A stretch of 29,919 bases of DNA from a virus, in the IMG/VR virus record IMGVR_UViG_3300024324_000057, positions 1 through 29,919 of that record; one strand, 5' to 3'. The position numbers and the translations under genes were made by a program. This document shows positions 837 to 28,260 of the stretch, one piece after another; position 1 is the stretch's first letter; each line of letters starts with the position of its first letter. Below the pieces are notes generated by a model. The model worked only from the letters and a program-made list of their open reading frames with translations, ran no database searches and was not told where the DNA came from.

Positions 837-1190
837 ATGAAATCGTTCAAAGAATATCTAATAGAAGGACTACCGCATCACGGCGATGGCGACATTATAT
901 CTTTTACAGACGATGGTAAAAAAGAAAAAGGTATCGTATCGAAAGTAATTAGCCAAGGTCCCAACAGGGGTATGATTGATGTGCGATTGATAAACAACTT
1001 GGTCATTCGTGATGATCGTGGATATGCGTTCATGGGGCCTGTATATTGGAGAATTAATCAAGATGATATTCTGAAGGTCTTGGCTGTATTACCACCGACG
1101 TATCGTGGAACGGATAAAGATTTTGAAAAATACAACAAAGTTGCAAAAAAGCATTTTGATATAATTGACCAGAGGAAAAAGAAGAAATGA
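837..1190 (+). CDS. Small protein with capsid-targeting leader, function unknown
   Basis: 117 residues. The N-terminus MKSFKEYLIE|G closely resembles the T4 internal-protein capsid-targeting sequence (MKTYQEFIAE|A). A gp21-type cleavage site L-x-E falls after residue 10. This predicts packaging inside the prohead and removal of the leader. The remainder is small and beta-rich, with a lysine-rich tail (final QRKKKK); I do not recognise the family. It has a good ribosome-binding site (GAGAGGAG) directly downstream of a T4-type late promoter. Its stop overlaps the next start as ATGA, so it should be co-translated with the kinase-like gene, which carries the same leader. Confidence 0.75.
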   Translation: MKSFKEYLIEGLPHHGDGDIISFTDDGKKEKGIVSKVISQGPNRGMIDVRLINNLVIRDDRGYAFMGPVYWRINQDDILKVLAVLPPTYRGTDKDFEKYNKVAKKHFDIIDQRKKKK

Positions 1191-1939
1191 AATCATTCAA
1201 AATCCACCTAGAGGAAGCCAAGACTCCCAAGCCCTCGGCTGTATGGGTTGTAGGTGGTGCTGCTTCTGGTAAATCAACGATAGCCGAAGACGCTATCGTA
1301 AAGCAACTCGGTTTTGAATTGATTGATGTTGACCAGCCCTTCGAGGCTATGCTGAAGAAATTCAAGCTATCGCCCGTTATCGAAAAGCCTCCCGCTAAGA
1401 CAGCCGCGCAAAAGGCTGCCGACAAACTAAAACCCAAAGTTACAATGTCTGATCTAAAAGACCCTATGGATTTCTTCAATGGCAAGAAACCCAGCACTCT
1501 TGGTGCGTCTGCGGTAGCCCGCGAAATCACCAAACGTAAAAACGAAAGTGTGATGGCGGCTAAAAAGAATATTTGCTTTGTGGAAACCGGTGGTCAAATC
1601 GGTGCTATCAAAAACAAAAAGAAAGACTTAGAAGACCTCGGATACAAAACCTTCGTCGTCTATGTGGGCGTTCACCCTAAAAAGAATTTAAGCAACGAGA
1701 AAGAGTTTCAAGTTGTTCTAAATACACTGAAAGAGCGTGGTAATAAGCGGCTCAAAGGCGGTGGTCGTGGACTCGATCCTAAAATCCTTGAGTCTTCATT
1801 GCGCCAACAAATCAAAGTTCGTGACCAGTTACTACCTATCTTCAGCCGAAATCAATTGCTGATAGATACTACCGATGGCGATCCTCGTAAGAATATCGCC
1901 AAAACGAAGAAAACCATCCAAACCTGGATGAAGAAATAG
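1187..1939 (+). CDS. P-loop kinase (zeta-toxin-like) with capsid-targeting leader
   Basis: 250 residues. The leader MKSFKIHLEE|A carries an L-E-E|A prohead-protease site after residue 10. A Walker A motif GGAASGKST (residues 23-31) follows at once, with hydrophobic strands on both sides (AVWVV; ELIDVD with D47 and D49; NICFVETGG). Length and layout suit the zeta-toxin/polynucleotide-kinase class of P-loop kinases, which phosphorylate a nucleotide-sugar or nucleic acid. I cannot tell which substrate applies. The insert at residues 62-105 is lysine/alanine-rich and looks disordered. If packaged and injected, it could act on host metabolites at the very start of infection; that is inference. Confidence 0.7.
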   Translation: MKSFKIHLEEAKTPKPSAVWVVGGAASGKSTIAEDAIVKQLGFELIDVDQPFEAMLKKFKLSPVIEKPPAKTAAQKAADKLKPKVTMSDLKDPMDFFNGKKPSTLGASAVAREITKRKNESVMAAKKNICFVETGGQIGAIKNKKKDLEDLGYKTFVVYVGVHPKKNLSNEKEFQVVLNTLKERGNKRLKGGGRGLDPKILESSLRQQIKVRDQLLPIFSRNQLLIDTTDGDPRKNIAKTKKTIQTWMKK

Positions 1940-1948
1940 GAGATTACT

Positions 1949-2116
1949 ATGGAAAAAGATTTTGGTTTTATTGACGGCTGGGGCTTATTCGGTGCTGACC
2001 AATGGATTGACGGCTCCCGTGGCTTTATCGGCGGCGGCGGTCATGGTGTTATTGAAGGTACCGAACGGTCTGGCGTAAACAGTCATATTGACGGCTCGGG
2101 AGGTTTCAAACCATGA
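1949..2116 (+). CDS. Small glycine-rich protein with IDG repeats
   Basis: 55 residues, preceded by AGGAG seven bases before the ATG and overlapping the next gene as ATGA. The sequence contains three short units: FIDGWG (residues 7-12), WIDGSRGF (19-26) and HIDGSGGF (46-53). A GGGG run lies between the second and third. There are no membrane segments or cysteines. It is not a family I recognise. The strong ribosome-binding site and tight spacing to both neighbours make it a likely gene rather than chance. Confidence 0.6.
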   Translation: MEKDFGFIDGWGLFGADQWIDGSRGFIGGGGHGVIEGTERSGVNSHIDGSGGFKP

Positions 2117-2325
2117 ATAGTTTCGCATATAAAACATCTATGTTTCAAGGCTTGGCAGCCTATGAAAAAGTCTCCGATGTTTTTCTCGCCATGTACATTA
2201 GGGATGATTTTGTGAAAGAGTATCTAATGGGCTTCAGAAAGGTCAATGTAGAAACAGCGAAAACTTTAACACATGCAATTGGTGATTACACTACCAAAAT
2301 ACGTAATCACTTAACAAGTCATTGA
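2113..2325 (+). CDS. Hypothetical 70-residue protein
   Basis: Begins MNSFAYKTSMFQ and is predicted to be mostly helical, with no recognised motif. Its start overlaps the stop of the glycine-rich gene. It sits between packaged-protein candidates, but its own N-terminus lacks a capsid-targeting leader. Confidence 0.6.
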   Translation: MNSFAYKTSMFQGLAAYEKVSDVFLAMYIRDDFVKEYLMGFRKVNVETAKTLTHAIGDYTTKIRNHLTSH

Positions 2326-2387
2326 ACAACCCTACACAGCGATCATAACACGCTGTCAAGTAGTTGTCAATACAAAAAGAGAAATAA

Positions 2388-2531
2388 ATGGAAAATATCG
2401 TAACACAATATTGGCCTCAGCTTACGGCCTTTGTTATGGTTGTTATTGTACTAGCGAGAATGAAGACCGACATTGATATACTGAAGGACAAGGTAAAAAC
2501 CCTGTTCGACTTGTGGAATAAAGAAAAATGA
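2388..2531 (+). CDS. Small single-span membrane protein
   Basis: 47 residues. One hydrophobic segment (about residues 12-23, LTAFVMVVIVLA) is followed by a charged amphipathic helix (RMKTDIDILKDKVKTL). This layout, membrane anchor plus short coiled-coil-like tail, is common in small phage membrane proteins of the XhlA/holin-accessory kind. The sequence alone does not prove a lysis role. An AAAAGAG sequence precedes the ATG. Its stop overlaps the metallopeptidase start (ATGA). Confidence 0.55.
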   Translation: MENIVTQYWPQLTAFVMVVIVLARMKTDIDILKDKVKTLFDLWNKEK

Positions 2532-3232
2532 AAACATTCACCGACATAGCCGAGGGTATCACAAAACCAGTACCAAGAAACACTATCGTTTCTACCGTGC
2601 AGAAAGCACGTAAGGCTATTGTTGGGAATGAACTTTCACCGAGACAAATCGCGCAAGCGATGGGCAAAGCCCTCAAAACGAAGTTCGATATAGAGGCGAC
2701 CTTCCGCACAGTACAACTCGGACAAGGCATGGACCAAGGCGATATGAACATAAACGCCTTCTATTCATGGGCAGACGACGAGGACGGCGACACCGCGATC
2801 GAACTAGAATTCATGTTTAGCGCCGCTGACAAGAAATTGACGATTGGTAAAGAAGGCTGGGAATTCCTTATGAACGCCACGGTTGCCGCCCTTCAGCATG
2901 AACTACTCCACCAAAACCAGTTTCGGTTAAGGGGATTCAAGCATCAAAAAGACTTCACCAAATTTTCCAGTGAAATTCCTAAGGTCATGAAAGCCCAGAA
3001 GTACCTTGGAAACGACGACGAGATAGAAGCATTCGCCCTAAACATATCAAGAGAACTGGTCTCTTTCTATGGAAAAGACGGCGCACTCAATAAACTCCGC
3101 AATATCAAGAGTATCAAGCCCAACGAAAGCGTGAATATGTTCGCATATCTAGCAGCCTTTGGCTACGATACCAAGCATACGGTCATAAAAAAGCTACTCC
3201 GCAAGATCGTTTTGTTTATAAATAAGAGATAG
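2528..3232 (+). CDS. HExxH metallopeptidase-like protein with capsid-targeting leader
   Basis: 234 residues. The leader MKTFTDIAE|G has an I-A-E|G prohead-protease site after residue 9. The zinc-binding motif HELLH is at residues 124-128. A downstream helix DDEIEAFALNISREL (163-177) could supply the third ligand, as in gluzincins (E165 or E167). Between leader and motif lies an acidic region with beta strands. HExxH can occur by chance, but here it sits in a hydrophobic helix (VAALQHELLHQNQ) followed by the expected Glu helix, which supports a real peptidase. It would be a late, packaged enzyme delivered with the DNA; target unknown. A T4-type late promoter overlaps its end. Confidence 0.65.
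   Translation: MKTFTDIAEGITKPVPRNTIVSTVQKARKAIVGNELSPRQIAQAMGKALKTKFDIEATFRTVQLGQGMDQGDMNINAFYSWADDEDGDTAIELEFMFSAADKKLTIGKEGWEFLMNATVAALQHELLHQNQFRLRGFKHQKDFTKFSSEIPKVMKAQKYLGNDDEIEAFALNISRELVSFYGKDGALNKLRNIKSIKPNESVNMFAYLAAFGYDTKHTVIKKLLRKIVLFINKR
3217..3224 (+). promoter_or_regulatory. T4-type late promoter TATAAATA
   Basis: Exact TATAAATA inside the last codons of the metallopeptidase gene, about 78 bases before the ATG of the basic head protein. The transcript would begin with a roughly 70-base leader containing a strong hairpin. Confidence 0.6.
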
Positions 3233-3241
3233 AACACGTTA

Positions 3242-3281
3242 GGGTACGCCAAACCGGTTCGATATTGATGCCACCGTACCC
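3242..3281 (+). promoter_or_regulatory. Leader hairpin upstream of basic head protein
   Basis: GGGTACG (3242-3248) pairs perfectly with CGTACCC (3275-3281) around a 26-base loop. No U-tract follows, so it is not a terminator of the usual type. It lies between the late promoter and the GAGGA ribosome-binding site at 3291-3295. It may stabilise the transcript or regulate translation. Confidence 0.45.
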
Positions 3282-3301
3282 ATGATATAAGAGGATTACC
3301 G

Positions 3302-4051
3302 ATGGCAGACGATAACGAAACAGAAATTGAAGAAGTCCGTACCTTAAAAGTAGGTGACCTTCTGAAAATGCGCCGTAGATTCAAGGGCGTCAATAAAGCA
3401 AAAATCAAACGTGGCGCTAAAAAAGCAGCCCGCAATCCCGTAAGAAACATAGCCGCTCGTTCCGAGAAACTGGCCAAACGTCATGCAAGAAACGCAGCGG
3501 CTGAACGTCTATCTGGTGGTAAGAAGAAAGCAGACCAGTCATTAGCCGACCGCGTTCGCATTTCAAACCGTATCAGCAAATCCACAGCCATTAAGAAACG
3601 CATCGACCGCGAAGCCAAGAAGGGCAAGCGTATCGTTCGCCGTGAACTTATCCAATCCCGCCATAAGAAGAAGACCAACGAAGCACTTGAAGCCAAGTCG
3701 GCTAAGTGGGATATCTCGTTTGAGATCCTGGAGCAAGTTTTCAGCCGTGGTCTAGACAAGCACCATGAATTGGAAATCGATCACTTGACAGCCGAGCAAT
3801 ATGCCTTCGCAAGAGTGAATTCTTTTCTAGCCGGTGGGGCAGCATTACAAGAAGACATAGATTTGGTTGAAGAAGGTGGCGCAGGAGAATTCGGCACTAA
3901 AAAGTTGCGTGATAAATACCTCAAGGATACACCACACGCTTCTATGGAGCATATGTATTCGGCTGACAAACCTGAGCCTGTTGACACATATTTGAACCAG
4001 ACCGAGGGCTTCAATCTTATGCAGACTATCAAAGGTTTAAAAAAAAAATAA
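3302..4051 (+). CDS. Basic head/virion protein with ARVNSFLAGG domain
   Basis: 249 residues. After an acidic start, residues 20-125 are extremely rich in Lys, Arg and Ala, fit to bind packaged DNA. The second half has WDISFEILEQVFSRG followed by a segment ending FARVNSFLAGGAA. I recognise this arrangement from virion or head-core proteins of cyanophages, pelagiphages and other distant T4 relatives. A final block (EEGGAGEFGTKKLRDKYL and GFNLMQTIKGLKKK) is also typical of these phages. Exact virion position is unknown. It has its own late promoter and leader hairpin, suggesting high late expression. Confidence 0.6.
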   Translation: MADDNETEIEEVRTLKVGDLLKMRRRFKGVNKAKIKRGAKKAARNPVRNIAARSEKLAKRHARNAAAERLSGGKKKADQSLADRVRISNRISKSTAIKKRIDREAKKGKRIVRRELIQSRHKKKTNEALEAKSAKWDISFEILEQVFSRGLDKHHELEIDHLTAEQYAFARVNSFLAGGAALQEDIDLVEEGGAGEFGTKKLRDKYLKDTPHASMEHMYSADKPEPVDTYLNQTEGFNLMQTIKGLKKK

Positions 4052-4083
4052 ACTATCCGTCTAGTTTTCAGAAATCACTTGAA

Positions 4084-4272
4084 ATGTTCATCAAGATTCG
4101 GAAAACCAGTACAACGAAAACTATCGGCGCCCAAGCGGCAATGGCTGCAAAGGCGACGAACCTTGGACCAAAGGAATTTTTAGAGTGGCTTCACCAACAA
4201 GACAAAGAAGGCAATCTACCTAAGGGACTACTAGACACAAAACAAGCGAAATTTTTCAAAGGAACTACATAA
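4084..4272 (+). CDS. Hypothetical 62-residue basic protein
   Basis: A small basic protein with a conserved-looking middle (FLEWLHQQDKEGNLPKGLL). No strong ribosome-binding site is visible before the ATG. The TAA stop overlaps the next ATG (TAATG), which suggests translational coupling. Function not recognised. Confidence 0.5.
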   Translation: MFIKIRKTSTTKTIGAQAAMAAKATNLGPKEFLEWLHQQDKEGNLPKGLLDTKQAKFFKGTT

Positions 4273-4490
4273 TGACTAACCCATGGCACAACAACAAAAA
4301 CGACCCACTTGTAAACGCAGTACGCGACGTGGTACAAAAAGGCATGGTAAAACGTGAAGCTGATATGAATGAAATCGGGGCTGCTATGAATGCAGGCACA
4401 ACGGAACGCATCCAGGGTTTGAAAGCCTTAGAAGCGTTACATGCAACGCCTATGGAAGTCCAAACCGCACTAGGAACTAAAGATGATTAA
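4272..4490 (+). CDS. Hypothetical 72-residue protein
   Basis: Begins MTNPWHNNKNDPLVNAVRDVV; a small helical protein found between head-type genes. Overlaps the previous stop and, by 8 bases, the next start. The DPLVNAVRDV segment resembles small phage head/neck-region proteins, but I cannot name a family. Confidence 0.55.
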   Translation: MTNPWHNNKNDPLVNAVRDVVQKGMVKREADMNEIGAAMNAGTTERIQGLKALEALHATPMEVQTALGTKDD

Positions 4491-6882
4491 AGTCACCAAG
4501 AATGGTATCGTCAAGGAAGTAACCCTTGCAAGTATCTGGCTCAAAAAGGGTTGGGAACTGGCTGAGGGCGTCAACAGCGAAAAAGAAGGTGCGAAAGCCC
4601 CTGTTGGTAAAAAGAAGACTACCGACGACGACACCTCTGTTGACACCCAAAATCCAGAGATCGAAGGCGACAAGGGCGATAAGAAAAAGAAGGCTAAAAA
4701 AGAGCCTATCGAACTGAACCCAAAGTTAGAAGAAGAAACTCTTGACGAACGCAACTATGCCCTTGAGCGCAAGAACTATCATGGTACGCCAGAACAAATG
4801 GCCAAGAACCGTGCAAGAAAGCGCGCCCGCTATGCTATGGAGAAACTTGGTAAAGTCAAGCGCGGTGACAAAATGGATGTTCACCACAAAGACAACAACC
4901 CAGAGAACAACGACTCAAAGAACTTAGCCGTACAGACACAAGCGGTCAATCGCTCTGAGCCTAGACACCGTGACGACGCAGGGTCTGCTGGTCTTGGTGA
5001 AAGTATCAATGAGGGTGCTGTAAAAATAAGTAAAGCCCGCCTGATAAACAAATGGAATGTTACATGGCCCGCAGACACACCTAGGTCAGCCCATGTAAAA
5101 TCATTCAATGACGAAAAAGAAGCAAAGAAATTCGCCAAGGATAAAAGAAAAGAATTGGGTGAAGCCACACAGTATGACATAGATATGATGGGCACATTGG
5201 GCACCCGTGGTACACATAAAGTCACAGCCCGCACAGAAAAAGAAGCACACTATAAGGTCCGTCGCAAAGAAGGCCTTGGAAAACAGGACGTTCATTCCAT
5301 GAAAACAACAGAAACACCCGCCGACGAAATGACAGAAGATTCTGCTAGTCGTGCTTTCCGTGACGCCCGCCGTGGCATGAAAGCATCTGGTATGCTATCG
5401 AAGCGTGATAAGGCTGACCAGGACAATGATTCAGAAGAAGCCATTGATGGTAAAGAAGACAATATCATCATGCAACTCCGCAAGGCTGTTTCACTCCGCA
5501 ACGTCCAGAAGCCTGTTAAATTCCGTGACGGTAAGAAAGTCAAAGTGAATTCTGCACTAGCACAACAAGCAATGGATATGTTCAACTCTCTCCGAGGCGC
5601 AGATCGTAAAGAAGCGTTTATGAAGAAAATCTGGGCTTCCCATTCCGCTTTGCAGAAGGCTGTTCAAGAGGAAGTTGACTTGACGCCAGAAGAAATGGAT
5701 ATTTTCCTTGAGGCTATTACAATTACAGAGCGCACCAAGCAAGAGCCAGTCAAAGATGATAAGGATACCATTCTTGTCGTCAAGCGTGGTACTCAAAAGG
5801 TACAGCGTGTGAAAGCCTCCGAATGGAAAAAGTTGGAAAAGCAAGGCTATGTCCAGGCTGAAGAAACTGACCTCGAGGGTGAAATCATCTTTGAAGCAAA
5901 ATTCAAAATTCATGTTGAATTGGGTTCTGTTGATCCTACAGAGAAAAAAGAAAAGGTCACAGCAAAAACTAAAAGAGAAGCCGAACAGAAAATCATCAAA
6001 AAATACGAAACGACAACCCGTCGGGTGATGTTCCATTCGGTTATTGAAGAAGGCGCAATGCACGCGGCACTTGGCGCCGCCGTACCTCTCCTCACAGTAG
6101 GCACAGCTTTTGCTGTAAGTAAGATTGCTAAAGCCATGAAAGATCGTAAGAAGGGCAAAACAAAAGCCGCGAAGACCATCAAAAGTAAGAAGATGAAAGA
6201 AGAAGTTGACCTTGAGGGAATTGTGCTTGATGAAGGCAACAAGGTTCCTGACCAAACAGACGATACCCTTAGAAGTCTTATGGCAACTGCCAAAAGCCTT
6301 GCAATGAACCCTAAGAACAAGGGTAATAAAATTCTTGCTGGTAGAACCAAGCAACTCCGCGACGAAATGAAAAAGCGTGGTCTCAAAGAAAATGACGAGG
6401 GGTCAGAAGATACCTGTTCATGTGGTCACGTTGTTGGTGAATGCAAGTGCCCAGCCGATTGCAAATGCTCTTGCAACACCGAAGTTGAAACCACAGAAGA
6501 AACAGAAATGGTTACCGAAAGAAAGCAGAATTATCAAATCTATCATAATTCATATTCTTCGGCTGTTCAACACGGTCGCGAACATGCTGAAAAGCAAGGG
6601 TTTGAGGTCAGTGAAGATGATTGGTGGCATAAAGTTTCCACCGGACCTAAGAAGCCAAGCGAAGGTAAGACAAATTCCATTCGCATTCCAGTAAGCAAAG
6701 CAGGCAAGCCAACCAAAAAAGCCTTGTCTATGCAAGTCTTCGGTATGCCAAGTGGTAAATATGAATTGAACATGTATATCGAACACAATGACCATGAAAA
6801 TGAAACCGTGATTCGTGAAGAAACCAAGCCGAAAAAGAAGTCGCTTGAATCTTCAATCCGCGAGGTTATGTCGAAACGATAA
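4483..6882 (+). CDS. 799-residue lysine-rich virion protein with multiple prohead-protease sites
   Basis: A large modular protein. Residues 91-165 form an HNH-like module (KNYHGTPEQ, then DVHHKDNNPENN and KNLAV). Two similar modules share KVTA-R/K-T-x-x-EA (residues 246-255 and 491-500). A hydrophobic segment (about 527-547) could enter or cross a membrane. A Cys-rich knot (DTCSCGHVVGECKCPADCKC, 643-662) probably binds zinc. Sites matching T4 gp21 specificity, (L/I)-x-E before Ala/Gly, occur after E28, E177, E227, E471, E523 and E584. This suggests a packaged precursor cut into several basic peptides, like T4 internal proteins but joined in one chain. Function of each piece is unknown. Its start overlaps the previous gene by 8 bases. 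Confidence 0.65.
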   Translation: MIKVTKNGIVKEVTLASIWLKKGWELAEGVNSEKEGAKAPVGKKKTTDDDTSVDTQNPEIEGDKGDKKKKAKKEPIELNPKLEEETLDERNYALERKNYHGTPEQMAKNRARKRARYAMEKLGKVKRGDKMDVHHKDNNPENNDSKNLAVQTQAVNRSEPRHRDDAGSAGLGESINEGAVKISKARLINKWNVTWPADTPRSAHVKSFNDEKEAKKFAKDKRKELGEATQYDIDMMGTLGTRGTHKVTARTEKEAHYKVRRKEGLGKQDVHSMKTTETPADEMTEDSASRAFRDARRGMKASGMLSKRDKADQDNDSEEAIDGKEDNIIMQLRKAVSLRNVQKPVKFRDGKKVKVNSALAQQAMDMFNSLRGADRKEAFMKKIWASHSALQKAVQEEVDLTPEEMDIFLEAITITERTKQEPVKDDKDTILVVKRGTQKVQRVKASEWKKLEKQGYVQAEETDLEGEIIFEAKFKIHVELGSVDPTEKKEKVTAKTKREAEQKIIKKYETTTRRVMFHSVIEEGAMHAALGAAVPLLTVGTAFAVSKIAKAMKDRKKGKTKAAKTIKSKKMKEEVDLEGIVLDEGNKVPDQTDDTLRSLMATAKSLAMNPKNKGNKILAGRTKQLRDEMKKRGLKENDEGSEDTCSCGHVVGECKCPADCKCSCNTEVETTEETEMVTERKQNYQIYHNSYSSAVQHGREHAEKQGFEVSEDDWWHKVSTGPKKPSEGKTNSIRIPVSKAGKPTKKALSMQVFGMPSGKYELNMYIEHNDHENETVIREETKPKKKSLESSIREVMSKR

Positions 6883-6894
6883 CAGGAGAACGTA

Positions 6895-7149
6895 ATGCCA
6901 GCACCCAACCCAGATAAGTTGGAGCGTTTGTGGTACAGTTTTTTGAAGAATGCCAATAAGTTAGGATATGTCGTAAAGCCCAGTGAAATAGTGAACTTCC
7001 AACCCTGTCAAAATACCTGTAATATGGTACGAGGTAGGGTCGAAGTTCAAGCCCCAACCAGCTTAGAGTTAGTTGATATGGGGTACAAACCACGATATTC
7101 GCTGTCGCCGTTGCAAAAAGAAGCATATGACAATCAACAGAAATTATAA
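6895..7149 (+). CDS. Hypothetical 84-residue protein
   Basis: Good ribosome-binding site (CAGGAG) before the ATG. Has two nearby cysteines (PCQNTCNMVRG) and otherwise no motif I recognise. Its stop codon TAA lies inside a T4-type late promoter, as seen for the first gene of the window, so it ends the upstream transcription unit. Confidence 0.6.
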   Translation: MPAPNPDKLERLWYSFLKNANKLGYVVKPSEIVNFQPCQNTCNMVRGRVEVQAPTSLELVDMGYKPRYSLSPLQKEAYDNQQKL

Positions 7150-7152
7150 ATA
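7145..7152 (+). promoter_or_regulatory. T4-type late promoter TATAAATA
   Basis: Exact TATAAATA followed by GAGATATG, about 30 bases before the ATG at 7183, with a strong AAAGGAG ribosome-binding site in between. It fits high-level late expression of the decoration-type protein downstream. Confidence 0.65.
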
Positions 7153-7182
7153 GAGATATGGATATATCTAAAGGAGAACACT

Positions 7183-7797
7183 ATGCCCTTGTGGAAAAAT
7201 AGAGACACCGACACCGATGGAGCCAAGCCTCTATTTGTAGCGGGTGACCCACACGTTAATACACTAAACGTGATCGCAACCAACGAAGGTTGGGTACATC
7301 GCCGTACTTACACCGATATGCACTCAAAAGCCCGTGAGAAAAACGAAGTTTTGGTTGCTATCAACCGTCTTGCTGGTGCTGAAAACATTACAGACGCTGG
7401 TACAGAAGGCCTTGCCGCTGCGACCATCGTTGATGTTCGATTCACTGGTTTGCAAGTCGCAGCTGGTGGAACATCTAACCTTATCGTGACGTATAACGAA
7501 GAAGTTTATGTTACTGGCAACCCAACACTTGCTATTGCCGCCACAGCAACTTCAGCCAACACGTCACCGATTAGTGTTACATACACTTATGCGTCTGGTA
7601 ACGGTACTAACCGACTGACATTCTCTGGTACTATGGATGCTAACCAAGCATTCTATACAATCGGTGAAAATCCTGTTGTGCTTGCTGGTGGTACTATCAA
7701 GGACAAGTTGACATTTACAGCCAACTCTGACTTGACTATTCCTGCCGCACTGGCTGGTGCTAACTCTGTTCTCGGCGTTATGTACTCTAACACATAA
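7183..7797 (+). CDS. Virion decoration/surface protein with Ig-like beta domain
   Basis: 204 residues. The N-terminus MPLWKNRDTDTDGAKPLF resembles short N-terminal domains of structural proteins in cyanophage-like T4 relatives. From about residue 80 the protein is Ala/Thr/Ser/Gly-rich and reads as alternating beta strands (LIVTYNEEVYVTGNP, ISVTYTYASG, RLTFSGTMD, LTFTANSDLTIP), in the style of bacterial Ig-like repeats. It follows a T4-type late promoter and a strong AAAGGAG site. The likely role is head decoration or virion surface; exact location is unknown. Confidence 0.6.
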   Translation: MPLWKNRDTDTDGAKPLFVAGDPHVNTLNVIATNEGWVHRRTYTDMHSKAREKNEVLVAINRLAGAENITDAGTEGLAAATIVDVRFTGLQVAAGGTSNLIVTYNEEVYVTGNPTLAIAATATSANTSPISVTYTYASGNGTNRLTFSGTMDANQAFYTIGENPVVLAGGTIKDKLTFTANSDLTIPAALAGANSVLGVMYSNT

Positions 7798-7806
7798 GGG
7801 TAAATC

Positions 7807-8127
7807 ATGGCTGACCAAAAAATAACAGACCTTACTGCGGCGTCCTCGATTGCTGGTGAAGACGTTCTTGGTTTTGTTGATGACCCTAGTGGTACACCAA
7901 CGAACAAGAAAATCACCATCAACGAGATCTTCGCAGCGGTCCCAGCAAACACCGTGTTTAGTGGAAGTGTGGCGGTCGCAGGTGCGAACCTTCAGATTTT
8001 AACAACAGCAACCCCAGCCAATTCTACTGCGGTTGGTGTTGCAGGCAGTGTCCAATGGGATACCAGTTATGTCTACGTTTGTACCGCAACCGATACCTGG
8101 AAAAGGATCACTTTGACGAGTTTTTAA
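7807..8127 (+). CDS. Short fibre- or attachment-type structural protein
   Basis: 106 residues beginning MADQKITDLTAASSIAGEDV, a pattern common at the N-termini of phage tail-fibre and other surface proteins (KITDLTA...DVLGFVDDPSG). The C-terminal part (VGVAGSVQWDTSYVYVCTATDTWKR) matches a short beta module seen at fibre ends. The complete protein is only these two pieces, so it may be a small virion accessory protein rather than a full fibre. It sits 9 bases after the decoration-type gene. Confidence 0.6.
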   Translation: MADQKITDLTAASSIAGEDVLGFVDDPSGTPTNKKITINEIFAAVPANTVFSGSVAVAGANLQILTTATPANSTAVGVAGSVQWDTSYVYVCTATDTWKRITLTSF

Positions 8128-8133
8128 TATATC

Positions 8134-8484
8134 ATGGATTTGACAGCGAACAACTTTTTATTATTTGCCGCAAGAAACTACACCAACGATTACTGTGAGA
8201 GTGTAGATGAGTTTCACGATGACTTGAAAAAGATCAAGTATATCAAGCGGCTATTCAAGAAATACAGCAACGACGGTGAGTTAAGGGAAAGACTTATACT
8301 TAACCACCTCGTTGTCTTGTATAATGTTTTTGAAAGCGAGAGTCTGACAGAAATGCTCAAACTCAAGTTATCAGAATACGATAGTTATCTGAAGACGTTT
8401 CTATTCTACCTGAATTATTGGAACGACGCAAACGACACAACACCAATGGATACCAAAATCATTGATGCTTTAAGGAAAATTTGA
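8134..8484 (+). CDS. Conserved T4-relative protein of unknown function
   Basis: 116 residues, helical, beginning MDLTANNFLLFAARNYTN. I recognise this layout (DEFHDDLKKIKYIKRLF, then LRERLILNHLVVLYNVF) as a conserved protein of distant T4-like phages with no known role. The stop overlaps the ATG of the next gene. Conservation of this pair in related phages suggests linked functions, perhaps in virion assembly. Confidence 0.6.
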   Translation: MDLTANNFLLFAARNYTNDYCESVDEFHDDLKKIKYIKRLFKKYSNDGELRERLILNHLVVLYNVFESESLTEMLKLKLSEYDSYLKTFLFYLNYWNDANDTTPMDTKIIDALRKI

Positions 8485-10022
8485 TGGCCGGAGCAGTATT
8501 AGACATTTTTCTGGTCTACCAGTTTCTGAAGCGACTGGTACAGCCATTTGATGAAACCGATGCATATAAGCAGGGTATCATTGACGAGCGCGGTAAGCGT
8601 ACAGACAAGAAAATCTCAACCAAAGAAGAAAAAGACTCATATCGAATTTTCGATAAGATGGTTTTCAATCTCAAGAAATTGATCGAAAAGGTACCCTTTG
8701 GTAAAACTCGCATTGCGACCTATGCAGCCGCACTATTGCTTATCCGCGAACACCAGAATCCAAGTTATCAAGGTGGTCTACTCGCCGAGGCTTTTGAGGG
8801 TGCTATAGACGAATTTGAGAACAACCCCGAATCACTACAAGAACTGACCGAAGAAATTCTGGTCAATGAAGCCTCTGAAAAATACAAGGGTGTAATAATC
8901 AGTACCGACACTGGTGGTATGCGCCGTGGCGAAGGTGGTGGCAGAGCATCTTATTGGATTTCATCAAGAACCAGTAATAGTGGCAAAGAACGGTTCCGCA
9001 CGAAAAAAGAAGCCAAAGCCCATATCGACAATTTGAAAGAAGAAATCGCCAACGCAGTTGGTGGTGGTAACGTCGCTGGTACTGCACCCGGAGAAGATCC
9101 ACCCGTCAAAAAGAAAAAGAAAAAAGACGGTGTGGTACTACGCCGTGGGTTCAAGTCCTTTGTCAAAGAGGAAGCCGATGGCGCTCGTAAGCTGACCAAG
9201 GCAGACCTAGATGACGTTGAAAAGTTCGCAGACATGGCTTTCGCTAAGATGAAAATTGATGTTGAATTCACCCGCCACTTTTTGGACCGTGTGAACGACG
9301 CCCGCAACAAGAAACAGATTACAGCCGATGAACTAAAGATGTTGTTCGGTAAAGTGGCCAAGAAACATGCTGGTAAAATCCGTATGCTTGGTGACAAGGC
9401 GGAGCATATTATCAATTCTCTGAATACCGATATCAATTCACCGTTTGTTCTCAAACTAGACCGCGACAAGGGCTGGCTTGATATGACCATGAAGACGGTC
9501 ATGCGTAAGAAGAATTTCCGTATTGGTAAAGACCAGAAGAAATTCACCGTCGAGCAAGACCTTGAGGAATTGCGGGTTCAGAAGCCCCAAGCGAAAGATA
9601 CCCTAGGCATCCGCCGTGAGTATATGCCTCAAGTAGCCTCAAAAGATTACCCTGAATTGTTCATATTCTTGCAAAAAGCAGGGGCGAAATTGTCTAACAA
9701 GATGGTAGCCGCCCATGAACTGAAGCCTATTCAAAAGGAATTTTCCGATCAGGGCGTGACCAAGAGTATTGGTAAGGGTTTGTCGTTGGAACAAAAGCCT
9801 CTGATTATGTCGTCTGACGGCTATATCATTGACGGTCACCACAGATGGCTTTCCGTTATCAACACGAAACCCAAGAAAAAGATTCCGGTTATTCGCGTCA
9901 ATGTACCAGTCAGAAAATTACTGGCACTTGTGAAAGCCTTCCCGGGCACAACCTATAAAGATATCTATACCGAAACTCGTTTGGAAACCTCTCTCAAAAA
10001 AATGTCAGAAAAATGGCAATAA
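8484..10022 (+). CDS. Multidomain virion-associated protein with C-terminal ParB-like domain
   Basis: 512 residues from ATG 8484; AAGGA seven bases upstream supports this start over the TTG at 8481. Domain 1 (about 1-95) is a conserved phage domain (DIFLVYQFLKRL, then TRIATYAAALLLI). An L-A-E|A prohead-protease-type site follows at residue 102. Next come a short basic module (WISSRTSNSG...RFRTKKEAKAHI), a lysine run and a module FTRHFLDRVNDARN (about 262-275) with a conserved beta region. The C-terminal part has ELKPIQKEF and DGYIIDGHHRWLS, the signature of ParB/sulfiredoxin-like domains, which bind or cut DNA. This looks like a fusion of separately occurring phage modules, possibly cut during head maturation. 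Confidence 0.65.
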   Translation: MAGAVLDIFLVYQFLKRLVQPFDETDAYKQGIIDERGKRTDKKISTKEEKDSYRIFDKMVFNLKKLIEKVPFGKTRIATYAAALLLIREHQNPSYQGGLLAEAFEGAIDEFENNPESLQELTEEILVNEASEKYKGVIISTDTGGMRRGEGGGRASYWISSRTSNSGKERFRTKKEAKAHIDNLKEEIANAVGGGNVAGTAPGEDPPVKKKKKKDGVVLRRGFKSFVKEEADGARKLTKADLDDVEKFADMAFAKMKIDVEFTRHFLDRVNDARNKKQITADELKMLFGKVAKKHAGKIRMLGDKAEHIINSLNTDINSPFVLKLDRDKGWLDMTMKTVMRKKNFRIGKDQKKFTVEQDLEELRVQKPQAKDTLGIRREYMPQVASKDYPELFIFLQKAGAKLSNKMVAAHELKPIQKEFSDQGVTKSIGKGLSLEQKPLIMSSDGYIIDGHHRWLSVINTKPKKKIPVIRVNVPVRKLLALVKAFPGTTYKDIYTETRLETSLKKMSEKWQ

Positions 10023-10026
10023 ACGC

Positions 10027-10070
10027 TTGACATTTGGTCGAAAATGGTGCATGATCAGATAGTAAGATCA
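10027..10070 (+). promoter_or_regulatory. Early sigma70-like promoter with operator-like inverted repeat
   Basis: TTGACA (10027-10032), exactly 17 bases, then CATGAT (10050-10055). TGATC and GATCA arms (10052-10070) form an inverted repeat over the -10 element and start site. The same block recurs at 22638 and 25985, and in weaker form at 26275. It drives the small broken gene at 10089. Confidence 0.75.
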
Positions 10071-10088
10071 GAAACCAAGGGGAGAGAA

Positions 10089-10293
10089 ATGGTAGTGCGA
10101 TTGAAGAAAAAAAGGTTGGACCGACGGTTCCCATGATGTAAACGCAAAAACACGTTCACAGCGTTACAACCGTAAAGACGGTGCTTACACACCAGAATTC
10201 AACGGTATTGACGAAAAGAACGATTGGGATTATGATCCTGAAACGTCAGAAGATTCTCTGTTGGGCATGATAGATTTGAATTCGGATTATTGA
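10089..10293 (+). pseudogene. Small early gene interrupted by a one-base shift
   Basis: From ATG 10089 (GGGGAGAG upstream) the reading frame gives MVVRLKKKRLDRRFP and stops at 10134. Another frame continues without a start as GWTDGSHDVNAKTRSQRYNR...LLGMIDLNSDY up to the stop at 10291. Removing one A from the seven-A run before GG at about 10114 joins both parts into a plausible protein of about 67 residues. The alternatives are a real +1 programmed shift, a true mutation or a homopolymer sequencing error. The strong promoter and ribosome-binding site argue that this is a genuine gene. Family not recognised. Confidence 0.6.
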
Positions 10294-10294
10294 T

Positions 10295-10498
10295 ATGAAC
10301 ATAATGCAAACAAGTGCCGTAATAATAAATATGGACCAGATTGCTTCTGTAGGTCGAGGCTATGACTCGGGTTCAGCATATAGCCAGATTCCATATGTTG
10401 TAGAATTATCGTCTGGTCGACTGATACCAATATCATCGGATAATGATATTGAAATGTTGTTGTTGTGGTTCCCACGCCTGGATGAATTAAGGAAATAG
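10295..10498 (+). CDS. Hypothetical 67-residue protein
   Basis: Starts one base after the preceding stop. Beta-rich start (SAVIINMDQIASVGRGYD) and a hydrophobic C-terminal helix (NDIEMLLLWFPRLDELRK). No family recognised. The sequence AAGGAAATAG at its end provides the ribosome-binding site of the next gene. Confidence 0.5.
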   Translation: MNIMQTSAVIINMDQIASVGRGYDSGSAYSQIPYVVELSSGRLIPISSDNDIEMLLLWFPRLDELRK

Positions 10499-11038
10499 AT
10501 GAAACGATTTATAGAACAAGCAATATTGTCGGAAGCGTCTGACCGCGGCTCAATGCCTGAAATATTTTTGGATATGGATGGCGTTGTGGCTGATTTTAAC
10601 CATGGCGCTGCAAGAGCAATGGACCGCAAATTCGGCGGTCGTCTTGACAACAACAAAATCACCAACGACGAATGGAAAATCATTCTCGCTACTCCTGATT
10701 TTTGGTTAACCCTACCCGTCTTAGCCGACGGCGTTCGCGTATATAAGTACGTCAAAAAGTATCGCTTGAATGTTTTGAGCGCAGCCCCTGATGGTGACCC
10801 CACTGCGGAAGCGCAAAAGAAAAAATGGTTCTTGAGCAAGATAGGAACCGTCTCTGGCAAAATCAACATTGTCAGACGTAAAGACAAAATCAAGTTTGCT
10901 GTCACTAACGGTACACCCAATATTCTCATTGATGATTTCAACAAGAATATCAAGGAATGGGAAGCAGCCGGTGGTATCGGAATCCTACATACCAGTGCCA
11001 AGAAAACTCTTGACGCATTGAAAGAATTAGGATTTTGA
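10499..11038 (+). CDS. HAD-superfamily 5'(3')-nucleotidase-like phosphatase
   Basis: 179 residues. HAD motif I is FLDMDGVVADF with nucleophile D25 and D27. Motif II is NVLSAAP (S94), and a late acidic motif NILIDDFNKN carries D145/D146. Length fits the 5'(3')-deoxyribonucleotidase group, which removes phosphate from nucleotides. The N-terminus MKRFIEQAILSE|A resembles the capsid-targeting leaders at 837, 1187 and 2528, with L-S-E|A after residue 12. It is less clear because the preceding helix differs. It may be a nucleotide-pool enzyme, a packaged enzyme, or both. Confidence 0.7.
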   Translation: MKRFIEQAILSEASDRGSMPEIFLDMDGVVADFNHGAARAMDRKFGGRLDNNKITNDEWKIILATPDFWLTLPVLADGVRVYKYVKKYRLNVLSAAPDGDPTAEAQKKKWFLSKIGTVSGKINIVRRKDKIKFAVTNGTPNILIDDFNKNIKEWEAAGGIGILHTSAKKTLDALKELGF

Positions 11039-11041
11039 ATA

Positions 11042-11419
11042 ATGCAAGGATATTTAATCATGGCCATTATTATAGCAATGATGGCTGGTATAGGCGGCCT
11101 TTACTATAAAGACTCCCAAAAAACGATAGGGATCTTGCAGGGCAACGTGGCGAAGGCCGAAGTTGCGACTAAACTAGCCAAGAGTGAAATCAAGGCTATG
11201 GCCGAGGCGCAAGCGAAGCAGGAAGTTTTGATTGCCGCATTGAACAAGGAAATGATCAAAGCCGATGAAGAAGTTGCTGGTCTCCGCAAACTCTACCGCA
11301 ATCATGACCTAACAAATCTAGCCCTTAAAAAGCCTGAGCGCATCAAAAAGATTATCAACGCAGGCACAATGAAAATATTTAAGGAGTTGGAAAATGAAAC
11401 CGCTGTTCCTTCTAATTAG
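11042..11419 (+). CDS. i-spanin (Rz-like inner membrane subunit)
   Basis: 125 residues: one N-terminal membrane segment (residues 3-20, GYLIMAIIIAMMAGIGGL), then a long charged coiled coil (about 25-85) and a basic tail. This is the layout of Rz-type i-spanins, which span from the inner membrane and join the o-spanin to fuse both membranes at lysis. The overlap with the lipoprotein gene that follows is the classical Rz/Rz1 arrangement and makes the call firm, although sequence similarity in this family is low. Confidence 0.75.
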   Translation: MQGYLIMAIIIAMMAGIGGLYYKDSQKTIGILQGNVAKAEVATKLAKSEIKAMAEAQAKQEVLIAALNKEMIKADEEVAGLRKLYRNHDLTNLALKKPERIKKIINAGTMKIFKELENETAVPSN

Positions 11420-11759
11420 TCTCTCATTGGCGTTGGCCAGTTGTTCATGGGCCACAAAGGTTCTGGAACTTGACGTTACCACAAAAAACGCGACGATAGC
11501 CAAAGCTGGCTCACCAAGACCAGTATCCATGAACCATGTGGAATTCTATGTGGTCAACGAGGAAAACCTACAAGACGTAATTGCTTTGGTCAAAAAACAC
11601 CAGGGTGAATTTGTTGTAATGGCATTCACGCCGAAGGGATATGAGAATATGTCCCTGAACCTCAAAGAGCTACAACGCTACCTACGAGAGCAAAAAAGTA
11701 TTATTATCTACTACGAAAAATTCCTGTACGATAAGAAAAAAGAACCAAAAAAAGATTGA
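11394..11759 (+). CDS. o-spanin (Rz1-like outer membrane lipoprotein)
   Basis: 121 residues. Signal peptide MKPLFLLISLSLALAS with lipobox L-A-S-C, so the lipidated Cys is residue 17. The ribosome-binding site AAGGAG is within the i-spanin gene, and the two genes overlap by 26 bases in different frames. At over 100 mature residues it is longer than lambda Rz1, with a folded-looking beta/alpha domain (HVEFYVVNEENLQDVIALVKKH). No endolysin is found in this window. Confidence 0.75.
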   Translation: MKPLFLLISLSLALASCSWATKVLELDVTTKNATIAKAGSPRPVSMNHVEFYVVNEENLQDVIALVKKHQGEFVVMAFTPKGYENMSLNLKELQRYLREQKSIIIYYEKFLYDKKKEPKKD

Positions 11760-22637: not shown

Positions 22638-22681
22638 TTGACATTTGGTCGAAAATGGTGCATGATCAAATAGTAAGATCA
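22638..22681 (+). promoter_or_regulatory. Early sigma70-like promoter with operator-like inverted repeat
   Basis: TTGACA (22638-22643), 17 bases, CATGAT (22661-22666), with TGATC and GATCA arms spanning 22663-22681. Its 29-base core is the same as that at 10027. Leader AACAGAGAGAGAAAG leads to the ATG at 22703. Confidence 0.75.
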
Positions 22682-25984: not shown

Positions 25985-26028
25985 TTGACATTTGGTCAGA
26001 AATAGTGCATGATCAGATAGTAAGATCA
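25985..26028 (+). promoter_or_regulatory. Early sigma70-like promoter with operator-like inverted repeat
   Basis: TTGACA (25985-25990), 17 bases, CATGAT (26008-26013), and TGATC/GATCA arms (26010-26028). Leader GAACCAAGAGAGAGATT before ATG 26047 resembles the leader at 10071. Confidence 0.75.
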
Positions 26029-26811: not shown

Positions 26812-26887
26812 GAGCGTGATGCCGAATGGTAAGGTCTTCGCCTGCAAAGCGAAATTGAAGTCGGTTCGATTCCGACCATGCTCTCCA
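26812..26887 (+). tRNA. tRNA-Cys(GCA)
   Basis: Cloverleaf with acceptor GAGCGTG/CATGCTC, anticodon stem TTCGC/GCGAA, loop CTGCAAA (anticodon GCA), T-arm GTCGG-TTCGATT-CCGAC and encoded CCA. First gene of the array. Confidence 0.9.
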
Positions 26888-26893
26888 AATTAT

Positions 26894-26993
26894 AGCCTAT
26901 GCCCATTGGGGGCTGACTTTTAAGCCGCAAGTAAGAAAGTCCGGTATATCTTGCGAATACCGAATACAGGTTCGATTCCTGTTATGGCTGCCA
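26894..26993 (+). tRNA. tRNA-Leu-like gene with enlarged anticodon loop
   Basis: D-arm GCCC/GGGC, anticodon stem GACTT/AAGTC, long variable arm CGGTAT/ATACCG, T-arm ACAGG-TTCGATT-CCTGT, then G and CCA. The anticodon loop is 17 bases rather than 7; deleting ten (AAGCCGCAAG) would leave TTTAAGA with anticodon TAA. The acceptor pairs only at AGCC/GGCT, and the two bases between acceptor and D-arm are missing. Either a decayed leucine tRNA or one that needs unusual processing. Confidence 0.45.
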
Positions 26994-27150
26994 AATTAAG
27001 GGTGCGGGCGTGTTAAGAAACTTGAATGTTTCGGAAGTTAGTAAGGGGTCGACACCGAACTAATTTCTATCAAAGGGGTTCAACTCCCCTTTCTCTGAAA
27101 ATTACTGGGTTGAATTCCGCTTTTGGCGAAGCGTCGAGTTCCCCCTTTTT
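26994..27150 (+). other. Structured stretch with T-arm-like segments, no clear tRNA
   Basis: Contains GAAGTTAGT pairing with ACTAATTTC and a T-arm-like hairpin AGGGG-TTCAACT-CCCCT. A second T-loop-like GGGTTGAATTCC and a hairpin GCTT/AAGC before CCCCCTTTTT follow. No matching acceptor or anticodon arm was found. Possibly remnants of tRNA genes. Confidence 0.3.
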
Positions 27151-27154
27151 ATAA

Positions 27155-27251
27155 ACGCTTGATGTTCTACACAACAAAACTTTCCCAAGGGAATGTGTAG
27201 GCTACTGGTGTAAAGTTGGGAATAGAAACGGTTCGATTCCGTTCTAGCGTT
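27155..27251 (+). tRNA. tRNA-like gene with abnormal central part
   Basis: Normal T-arm AACGG-TTCGATT-CCGTT followed by acceptor strand CTAGCGT, which pairs with ACGCTTG; the pairing extends outward as ATAAACGCT/AGCGTTTAT (27151-27159 with 27246-27254). Between are TTCCCAA/TTGGGAA and CTACACA/TGTGTAG, mutually competing stems. A GTGTAAA near the end looks like a Tyr anticodon loop but lacks its stem. No CCA. Amino acid not assigned. Confidence 0.35.
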
Positions 27252-27261
27252 TATTTTATAT

Positions 27262-27346
27262 GCATTGGTTAGGCAGGTGGTGAGCCTAAGAGACTGTAAA
27301 TCTCCCGTTTTTTACTTTGAAGGTTCGATTCCTTCCCGATGCACCA
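27262..27346 (+). tRNA. tRNA-Tyr(GTA)
   Basis: Acceptor GCATTGG/CCGATGC, D-arm AGGC/GCCT with GG in the loop, anticodon loop CTGTAAA, enlarged variable region as in bacterial Tyr tRNA, T-arm GAAGG/CCTTC, encoded CCA. Confidence 0.85.
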
Positions 27347-27351
27347 ATCAT

Positions 27352-27428
27352 GCTTCTGTAGTCAAATGGATTTGGCACCTCCCTACGAAGGAGACATAAT
27401 GCAGGTTCGAATCCTGTCAGAAGCCCCA
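27352..27428 (+). tRNA. tRNA-Arg(ACG)
   Basis: Acceptor GCTTCTG/CAGAAGC, D-arm GTCA/TGGC, anticodon loop CTACGAA, T-arm GCAGG-TTCGAAT-CCTGT, encoded CCA. Confidence 0.85.
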
Positions 27429-27438
27429 ATTCAAATAT

Positions 27439-27512
27439 GGCGTTGCTAGTTCAGTGGCAGAATTCTTGACTGTGAATCAAGAGACCAGGGTTCGATTCCC
27501 GGCTCCGCCCCA
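27439..27512 (+). tRNA. tRNA-His(GTG)
   Basis: Anticodon stem CTTGA/TCAAG, loop CTGTGAA, D-arm GTTC/GAAT with GG, T-loop TTCGATT. A G at 27439 can pair with a C discriminator, as expected for His G-1. Two acceptor mismatches lie in the middle of the stem. Confidence 0.75.
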
Positions 27513-27521
27513 AAAAGAGAT

Positions 27522-27585
27522 GGCGTTGTGGCCTAGCTTCAAACGTTGCACTTACGGGGAACGGTGCATTAAACCTCCCGCCCCA
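27522..27585 (+). tRNA. Degenerate tRNA-like element
   Basis: Begins GGCGTTG and ends CCGCCCCA, both shared with the preceding tRNA-His, but the T-arm is not recognisable. The middle has CGTT/AACG and GCAC/GTGC in an order that would form competing stems or a pseudoknot. It reads as a decayed or rearranged copy of the His tRNA. Confidence 0.3.
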
Positions 27586-27594
27586 AAAATTAAT

Positions 27595-27670
27595 GGACCG
27601 CTTCCTAGTAGTGGCTATAGGGCAATCCTTTTAAGTTTGTTAGATCTGGGTTCGATTCCCAGGCGGTCCT
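27595..27670 (+). tRNA. tRNA-Lys(TTT)
   Basis: Acceptor GGACCGC/GCGGTCC, D-arm CCTA/TAGG, anticodon loop CTTTTAA, T-arm CTGGG-TTCGATT-CCCAG. CCA is not encoded (ends in T followed by CAT). Confidence 0.85.
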
Positions 27671-27674
27671 CATT

Positions 27675-27738
27675 CTGTAATCCTTGTTGAATATCGAACT
27701 ATTATAAAATAATAGCGAATAAACAACAAGGATTACAG
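27675..27738. repeat. Large inverted repeat between tRNAs
   Basis: CTGTAATCCTTGTTG (27675-27689) and CAACAAGGATTACAG (27724-27738) are perfectly complementary over 15 bases. Inside is another stem CTATTAT-AAA-ATAATAG plus TCG/CGA. In RNA this makes a long hairpin separating two Lys tRNAs. Confidence 0.85.
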
Positions 27739-27747
27739 CACATATAT

Positions 27748-27826
27748 GGATACGAAGGTAGTGGTGACTATACCAACGGTCTCTTAAACCGTGTATTCGA
27801 GGGTTTGATTCCCTCCGTATCCTCCA
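27748..27826 (+). tRNA. tRNA-Lys(CTT)
   Basis: Acceptor GGATACG/CGTATCC, D-arm GGTA/TACC, anticodon stem ACGGT/ACCGT, loop CTCTTAA, T-arm GAGGG-TTTGATT-CCCTC, encoded CCA. Confidence 0.85.
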
Positions 27827-27832
27827 AAGTTA

Positions 27833-27888
27833 GCGACCATCCACAAGGGACGTGTGGTAGCCAGAGGATTTCGCCTGCCTCCAGTCGC
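27833..27888 (+). other. tRNA-like fold lacking a T-arm (tentative)
   Basis: GCGAC/GTCGC close a region with two hairpins, CCACA/TGTGG and GAGG/CCTC. There is no T-loop. It could be a tRNA remnant or simply a structured spacer. Confidence 0.2.
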
Positions 27889-27905
27889 GCAATGTTTGTG
27901 ATAAA

Positions 27906-27997
27906 TTTGTTATTTCTACTGTCTACTAGGCACCAACATTCTGGACGCCGATGGTGCGGTATCCAACAAAATGCTAGTAGGCGGTAGTAATAACAAA
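27906..27997. repeat. Large imperfect inverted repeat between tRNAs
   Basis: 24-base arms (27906-27929 and 27974-27997) pair at all but one position if two G-U pairs are allowed. An inner stem GCACC/GGTGC sits in the loop. Separates the Lys and Val tRNAs. Confidence 0.8.
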
Positions 27998-28003
27998 CAC
28001 TTT

Positions 28004-28080
28004 GCCCGGTTGGCTTGATGGGGAAGCAGCACCTTTACACGGTGTGATTTATGTAGGTTCGAATCCTATCCCGGGTACCA
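28004..28080 (+). tRNA. tRNA-Val(TAC)
   Basis: Acceptor GCCCGGT/CCCGGGT, D-arm GCTT/AAGC with GGGG, anticodon stem GCACC/GGTGT, loop TTTACAC, T-arm GTAGG-TTCGAAT-CCTAT, encoded CCA. Confidence 0.85.
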
Positions 28081-28088
28081 AAGTTTTT

Positions 28089-28165
28089 TCCTGTGGGTCC
28101 CTATTGGGAGGGGAGTCGGCCTGTTAAGCCGGAAGTTACACGTTCGAGCCGTGTCACAGGAGCCA
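28089..28165 (+). tRNA. tRNA-Asn(GTT)
   Basis: Acceptor TCCTGTG/CACAGGA, D-arm TCCC/GGGA, anticodon stem TCGGC/GCCGG, loop CTGTTAA, T-arm ACACG-TTCGAGC-CGTGT, encoded CCA. Confidence 0.85.
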
Positions 28166-28172
28166 AATTCAT

Positions 28173-28260
28173 GGAGAGCAGCGCCAAGGTGGCAAAGCGG
28201 TGTTGAATACCGTGCCGGTGGTTAGTAGCCCCGATGTTTCGATTACATTGTTCTCCTCCA
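28173..28260 (+). tRNA. tRNA-Ser(TGA)
   Basis: Acceptor GGAGAGC/GTTCTCC, anticodon stem GCGGT/ACCGT, loop GTTGAAT (TGA), long variable arm, T-arm GATGT-TTCGATT-ACATT, encoded CCA. Confidence 0.85.

Follow-up and report, generated by a model that had tools for sequence, protein, structure and literature searches.

The window analysed here is a whole virus record, IMGVR_UViG_3300024324_000057, a fragment of 29,919 bases, and its main point of interest is a short N-terminal leader, resembling the one that targets proteins into the head of phage T4, on four proteins encoded on its plus strand. The first gene (837..1190, leader 837-866) encodes a basic protein of 117 amino acids (aa) beginning with MKSFKEYLIE↓G, where the arrow marks the candidate cut. 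The second (1187..1939, leader 1187-1216) encodes a P-loop kinase of the AAA_33/zeta type (250 aa, MKSFKIHLEE↓A), the third (2528..3232, leader 2528-2554) a putative zinc peptidase with an HExxH motif (234 aa, MKTFTDIAE↓G), which is the weakest member of the set, and the fourth (10499..11038, leader 10499-10534) a 5'(3')-deoxyribonucleotidase, NT5C (179 aa, MKRFIEQAILSE↓A). All four N-termini listed in a preliminary description of this DNA are found where it had placed them, the (L/I)-x-E triplet that it put at residues 9-12 ends at residues 10, 10, 9 and 12 in gene order, and both T4 copies of the leader that it used for comparison indeed read MKTYQEFIAE↓A. It is likely that the window derives from a phage of the T4 superfamily in which at least two, and probably three, of these proteins (the kinase, the nucleotidase and the 117-aa protein) carry a T4-type capsid-targeting sequence and are packaged.

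In the ten-residue leader of the T4 internal protein IPIII, residues 4 and 7 serve targeting and residues 8 and 10 processing, and the protease gp21 cuts after L/I-x-E; with an E10D exchange, IPIII is reported to be loaded and left uncut (PMC9026906). MKSFKEYLIE fits this pattern (aromatic residues at 4 and 7, hydrophobic at 8, E10) in full, and MKSFKIHLEE fits it except for the histidine at residue 7; MKTFTDIAE is one residue shorter, and MKRFIEQAILSE, with its E12, two residues longer, so that the latter falls outside a tight motif in the T4 register and inside a looser one. The tight motif was composed after the sequences had been seen, its register being nonetheless that of T4, and it matches the first ATG in 22 of 2449 open reading frames (ORFs) from 13 T4-type sources, which include T4, the window and the related locus L001, whereas all 8532 internal ATGs lack it (Fisher p 4e-15). 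Three of the 43 window ORFs match at their first ATG, and 16 of 2143 do so once T4, the window and L001 are removed. At least one of the 22 matches is a false positive, namely UvsW of phage C48C1, matched through its own N-terminal domain. The control phages T7 (whole), N4 (50 kb) and CRP-345 (50 kb) gave 0/149 first and 1/970 internal ATGs, while the looser motif was found in eight non-T4 phages at 18/1786 first versus 9/5915 internal ATGs (p 1.8e-6; two matches entered twice owing to tile overlap). Taken together, the four leaders do not look like chance. The mature forms of all four proteins are also basic, with isoelectric points (pI) of 9.5-10.0 (9.6 for the 117-aa protein), which is a weak point because the window ORF read as a primase and a Mom-like DNA modification protein are basic as well (both pI 9.0). 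The Mom-like gene (23-817; PF25680, expectation value (E) 1.7e-51) lies directly 5' of the leader genes.

Judged by its homologues, the kinase is the best-supported leader protein of the window. A P-loop (GGAASGKS) is present, as the preliminary description had claimed, although the AAA_33 match of the window's own sequence (19.8 bits, E 0.001) stays under the curated cut-off of 27; all five aligned members of the kinase family match AAA_33, with a best E of 1.4e-14. When the window kinase alone served as query, no match was found in phages or viral contigs, and an alignment was needed. The leader is kept in L001, where the kinase is 66% and the nucleotidase 69% identical to those of the window and both large proteins of the window are shared, and M1, F4 and E10 are retained in four kinase homologues at 23-66% identity. 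Among 26 aligned sequences, the window included (22 loci were hand-picked from those in which the kinase is not behind an NMNAT; L292 was dropped), E10 is invariant, just as the P-loop lysine is. In an AlphaFold2 model with a mean predicted local distance difference test (pLDDT) score of 90, the first ten residues score 51, and the leader is accordingly predicted to be disordered; the fold matches nucleoside monophosphate kinases, polynucleotide kinase and zeta only modestly (best E 5.8e-6, query template modelling scores of about 0.4-0.5).

A total of 64 distinct viral kinase loci was collected, of which 38 are not behind an NMNAT, a class that takes in 650-890 aa proteins in which the kinase comes first, and 26 are fused behind a cytidylyltransferase/NMNAT. 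The sequence [hydrophobic]xE↓[GAS] precedes the kinase domain in 37 of the 38 (the exception, L306, is cut by the edge of its locus), and all 26 fusions show [IL]xE↓G at the junction, L298 with V at the first place; the corresponding shuffle rates are 0.13 and 0.22, and the loci are not independent. By pattern match, the leader opens 23 of the 26 fusions. A related kinase lies within a 778-aa protein of the Agrobacterium phage Atu_ph07 (L349 760-3096), with VTE↓G ahead of it; a virion-protein cluster of this phage has been placed at coding sequences 31-76 (PMC6102473).

The preliminary description had only part of the phenomenon, since by their N-termini the same leader marks NMNAT/cytidylyltransferase proteins across T4-type marine phages. 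Viral contigs were searched for these with domain-internal patterns rather than leader patterns, and the best 80 of at least 592 were taken, ranked by similarity to the leader-bearing NMNAT of phage S-SCSM1, a ranking that favours leader-like proteins. After merging of identical N-termini, and with L216 unplaceable, 73 of 75 distinct forms bear the leader (the others being L217 and L253/L255), and 72 have E at residue 10. Over 71 distinct leaders, M1, K2, F4, F7 and E10 each reach 4.2-4.3 bits, L/I8 3.0 and A/S11 3.1, followed by a drop to 1.1 at residue 12; these values omit L214, L216, L217, L243, L253, L255 and L256, and are slightly flattering because both leaderless forms are among those left out. 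Position by position, this conservation reads as the T4 signal.

The nucleotidase, which had been proposed with a "perhaps", is now confirmed as a family member by a PF06941 match of 32.4 bits against a cut-off of 24.8 (E 1.1e-7), and also matches phrog_2643 (E 6.8e-27). Its L001 counterpart keeps the leader as MKRFIIHAMLQE↓A, and leaders are found on nucleotidases elsewhere, for instance MKSFRVYVKE↓D (L145), MKTFLEFITE↓A (L149) and MKSFRDYIQE↓D (L150), in a set made up of the best 80 of 94. For the peptidase, the HExxH motif is indeed there (HELLH), and all eight relatives keep it as HEMIH or HEIIH, whereas the claim of a peptidase drew no Pfam match up to E 0.5; the protein likewise had no match in the phages collection, and a fold search with its model (pLDDT 77) returned none at E 0.001. 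A different HExxH protein (ILAHEMVHVKQ), lacking a leader, is encoded near the kinase in L001 (859-1323). Searches with the 117-aa protein gave nothing in PHROG up to E 0.1 and just a DUF2187 match at E 0.13, and no relatives were found in viral contigs.

A leader of this type would require a matching protease, and gp21 (PF03420) is present in 9/9 complete genomes compared, T4 included. It also occurs in 4 of 40 nucleotidase-bearing contigs, one of which (G040) combines gp21, gp23 and a nucleotidase starting with MKTYNQILYE. Around the cut, the capsid proteins of 11 phages all show L/I-x-E, followed by A in eight of them and, by eye, by T in syn9, I in HTVC008M and T in C48C1. In T4 the capsid site falls at E65, and the length of the gp23 propeptide equals this position (PMC9026906).

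Evidence from virus particles comes from related cyanophages. A putative cytidylyltransferase (T4-GC190) was found in virions of S-SM1 (Sullivan 2010, PMC3037559). Leaders were read in two other cyanophages: the NMNAT detected in S-SCSM1 virions (PMC9602691) starts with MKSFLQFLKE↓A, and the S-CREM2 virion table lists a cytidylyltransferase, a SAM hydrolase and a kinase (PMC10665884), which start with MKNFSSFLTE↓A, MKDFDSFLEE and (V)KRFDAFLTE, respectively. Across both phages, four of the five genes with a canonical leader (NMNAT in each, plus the SAM hydrolase and the kinase of S-CREM2) are virion-detected, versus 100 of all 501 genes (one-sided p 0.006), and looser motifs at annotated starts give 4/6 (p 0.016) and 5/10 (p 0.03). 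The 100 detected genes consist of 52 from the table and 48 GenBank labels counted by hand; the S-SCSM1 paper's own count of virion proteins is 45 (PMC9602691). Virion-protein labels are also borne by S-SCSM1 ORFs 89-93, 95 and 97, which are syntenic with the window cluster. Another virion-detected protein, S-CREM2 gp12 (L101 7704-10313), annotated as Cas9, contains PLRFASFMAE↓A at residues 16-25; it was not counted as a leader protein because codon 17 is CTG.

The remaining genes of the window place this cluster in its genomic setting. An ORF at 7183..7797 (+) resembles a head protein (phrog_613, E 1e-4), and its residues 28-64 match S-SCSM1 ORF95 (E 2.9e-6), for which the GenBank label is virion protein. 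DUF7207 (8134..8484, +; PF23837, E 5.9e-37), the synteny marker of the T4-type cluster, is matched by 462 phage records, 368 of them Synechococcus phages, and in T4-type phages the cluster sits between a helicase gene and primase/ribonucleotide reductase. The window shows the T4-type core order of DUF7207, then primase and ThyX ORFs (by eye) and a class II ribonucleotide reductase, and the annotations of syn9, Melnitz, Cr30 and DLP6 show much the same arrangement; by its gene content the window belongs to the genome of a T4-superfamily phage. One further record, L114, is identical to it over the 5,500 bases compared. Beside DUF7207 in the Caulobacter phage Cr30 (L010 12383-12703) lies a protein starting with MKTFKQFFNE↓S, with a PARP/ADP-ribosyltransferase match below cut-off (E 0.0018), a possible parallel to T4 Alt. 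Three copies of a 26-base element (10044-10069, 22655-22680 and 26002-26027), with at most one mismatch and none expected from shuffles, may represent a promoter or other control element. Adjoining short ORFs for a membrane protein and a lipoprotein-like product (11042-11759) resemble a spanin pair by eye, and 14 tRNA genes lie within 2.8 kb (26812-29575).

Packaging by a T4-type leader is the best reading of these data for at least the kinase and the nucleotidase. Mechanistically, the leader, with an aromatic residue at 4 and an aromatic or hydrophobic one near 7, would bind the scaffold core during prohead assembly; gp21, encoded off the fragment, would cut after [LI]xE; and the mature basic enzymes would be kept in the head until injected into the cell along with the DNA. 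We infer packaging, cleavage and injection for the window's phage, and it is probable that phages of this kind deliver a small kit of enzymes together with their DNA, because the T4 head-loading tag stands on enzymes and tagged proteins of relatives occur in virus particles. As to purpose, one guess is that the kit would be active before phage gene expression, on nucleotide or NAD (nicotinamide adenine dinucleotide) supply or on host defence.

Several observations nevertheless weigh against this reading. gp21 was not found on the 29.9-kb fragment itself, nor in any of the four IMG/VR relative fragments first searched, so that the protease looked for after the preliminary description is confirmed in complete genomes and not in the window; moreover, the other three contigs with both gp21 and a nucleotidase have no full leader on the latter, those of G027 and G028 beginning at the domain and that of G019 with MKSLKDFIVGKELP, which has no [LI]xE. 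The leader motif appears in only 7 of 34 distinct nucleotidase forms, one of them borderline and one from the window's own virus. An attempt to treat leadered nucleotidases as a contrast between T4-type and other phages failed, DUF7207 being present in 34 of the 40 nucleotidase contigs tested, leaderless ones included; with few leadered forms and most contigs T4-type, the leader is therefore best described as gained or lost on this enzyme. The eight relatives of the HExxH protein have no leader and start about five residues later, which makes its leader an extension seen in one genome only and the least sure of the four. The tight motif gives no match in HTVC008M and DLP6, where the kinase and the cytidylyltransferase, respectively, bear variant leaders. 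With regard to virions, S-SCSM1 ORF30 has a perfect canonical leader and no virion label, and S-CBWM1, a phage called non-T4, has an NMNAT without a leader that was nonetheless reported in the virion (PMC10665884), a finding that either contamination or packaging without a leader would explain. The authors of the proteomes themselves allow for contamination through incomplete separation from virions in caesium chloride (CsCl) gradients (PMC10665884, PMC9602691). Finally, the window's phage is one for which we know of no virion proteome. Overall, the capsid-targeting proposal of the preliminary description emerges well supported for the kinase, fairly so for the nucleotidase and as plausible for the 117-aa protein, and does not extend securely to the HExxH protein.

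Among other explanations, the one that survives best, though we consider it unlikely, is that the leaders are real and conserved and have another role. For example, they might bind scaffold or portal, their bearers being structural or assembly components retained in the capsid, or they might stabilise the N-termini of enzymes that act in the cytosol. Parts of the syntenic cluster do look structural, such as the head-like ORF at 7183, leaderless nucleotidases exist in contigs of the same phage group, and in 62 of the 63 loci with the site the kinase E↓G precedes the P-loop by exactly 14 residues, so that it could be a plain domain start. However, the kinase model shows the leader as disordered, it is found on unrelated proteins (NMNAT, P-loop kinase, nucleotidase, SAM hydrolase and protein kinase), and it matches the four residues that T4 requires for targeting and cutting (PMC9026906). 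That the resemblance reflects chance, or a composition common to phage N-termini (MK-aromatic starts), is highly improbable: the motif is short and post hoc, with the UvsW match as one clear error and the HExxH leader confined to the window's genome, but internal ATGs contribute nothing to set against the 22 first ATGs, the 73 NMNAT leaders were reached through domain patterns, albeit ranked against a leader-bearing query, and the leader residues of the kinase homologues are held while the remainder diverges. Chance is hence strongly disfavoured for the kinase, and less so for the HExxH and 117-aa proteins. The scantest probability attaches to the virion enzymes of relatives being lysate contaminants and the leader a relic of an ancestral internal protein, for although CsCl separation was possibly incomplete (PMC10665884, PMC9602691) and the S-CBWM1 NMNAT was reported in the virion without any leader, only 100 of 501 genes were detected, with leader genes over-represented among them (in small numbers), NMNAT detection recurs in several phages (PMC3037559, PMC9602691, PMC10665884), and F4, F7 and E10 at more than 4 bits are not expected of a relic.

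If T4-type packaging is the correct reading, larger proteins may share the same route. The 249-aa basic protein at 3302..4051 (+; pI 10.0; phrog_3041 cytidyltransferase, E 1.5e-7) matches, with residues 10-232, positions 188-410 of the L001 cytidylyltransferase fusion (E 1.2e-96), that is, its C-terminal part; the junction in L001 reads VLDE↓A. The 799-aa multidomain protein (4483..6882, +), with an HNH-like domain (HNH_3, below cut-off), contains seven [LI]xE[AGS] sites versus 1.56 in shuffles (p 0.002), which makes it a possible polyprotein, and its L001 homologue three versus 1.0 (p 0.08). The 512-aa protein (8484..10022, +) combines an N-terminal phrog_18642/2086 part, a middle domain and a C-terminal DarB-like (ParB-like) domain that matches phage proteins annotated as DarB-like antirestriction; its first two domains are separate genes in Melnitz, and its single [LI]xE[AGS] site is not significant. 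Enrichment of such sites in multidomain proteins is mixed (p <0.05 in 4 of 18 tested). On this basis we put forward, tentatively and as a possibility less probable than otherwise, that in T4-superfamily phages one leader would load multi-enzyme polyproteins which gp21 would cut into separate enzymes in the prohead, the released pair then being injected. The NMNAT-kinase fusion may be the clearest case, and the 799-aa protein of the window another; cutting of the fusion is a proposal only, because a constant spacing of 14 residues from the P-loop is also compatible with the domain simply beginning there. We know of no report of gp21 cutting enzyme polyproteins; scaffold proteins are cut by it into several pieces (PMC9026906). 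If true, an NMNAT and kinase pair would be injected at time zero, for example keeping NAD or nucleotide pools up against an NAD-depleting defence, and the head protease would be used by these phages for the processing of enzyme polyproteins.

The T4 leader system is already known. The new elements are the cargo and how widely it is spread among marine T4-type phages, together with a way to account for NMNAT in virions and fusions of enzymes that contain a candidate site for cutting. In the abstracts and text passages covered, we found no paper tying the leader to these enzymes. The leader offers a readable signal for the proteins that T4-type phages would pack and inject, in abundant marine relatives with mostly hypothetical genes, and a possible explanation for the repeated and unexplained NMNAT and kinases in cyanophage virions. 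It also predicts exact new N-termini, checkable against existing mass spectra.

Four known systems invite comparison. The C-terminal domain of the 512-aa protein is like the P1 DarB-like virion proteins; unlike P1, the head assembly of the window's phage would be of the T4 type, and the leader was not found on the 512-aa protein. SPN3US has ejection proteins processed by its prohead protease and resembles the present proposal in its large packaged and cleaved set, but belongs to a different head lineage. The SPN3US processing signal differs as well. The virion NMNAT/cytidylyltransferase (T4-GC190) and kinases of cyanophages share the leader with the window, as well as a syntenic locus near DUF7207, primase and ribonucleotide reductase (S-SCSM1, syn9), whereas the window yielded no NMNAT, the sole trace being ORF 3302, which corresponds to the C-terminal part of the L001 fusion; in the passages of the cyanophage papers that deal with NMNAT, a packaging signal is not named. 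The closest likeness is to T4 IPI, IPII, IPIII and Alt, which also have a leader of about ten residues with an aromatic residue at 4, a hydrophobic one at 7-8 and E10 followed by A or G, basic mature proteins and, as in the complete relatives, a gp21-type protease, with Alt being likewise an enzyme. The difference lies in the cargo, which for the window is predicted to comprise the P-loop kinase, the nucleotidase, the HExxH protein and the small 117-aa protein, none of them part of the T4 set. T-even phages vary the internal proteins behind the leader (PMC12373910, PMC3012670), and the leader has been suggested to let T4-like phages take up various proteins (PMC9026906).

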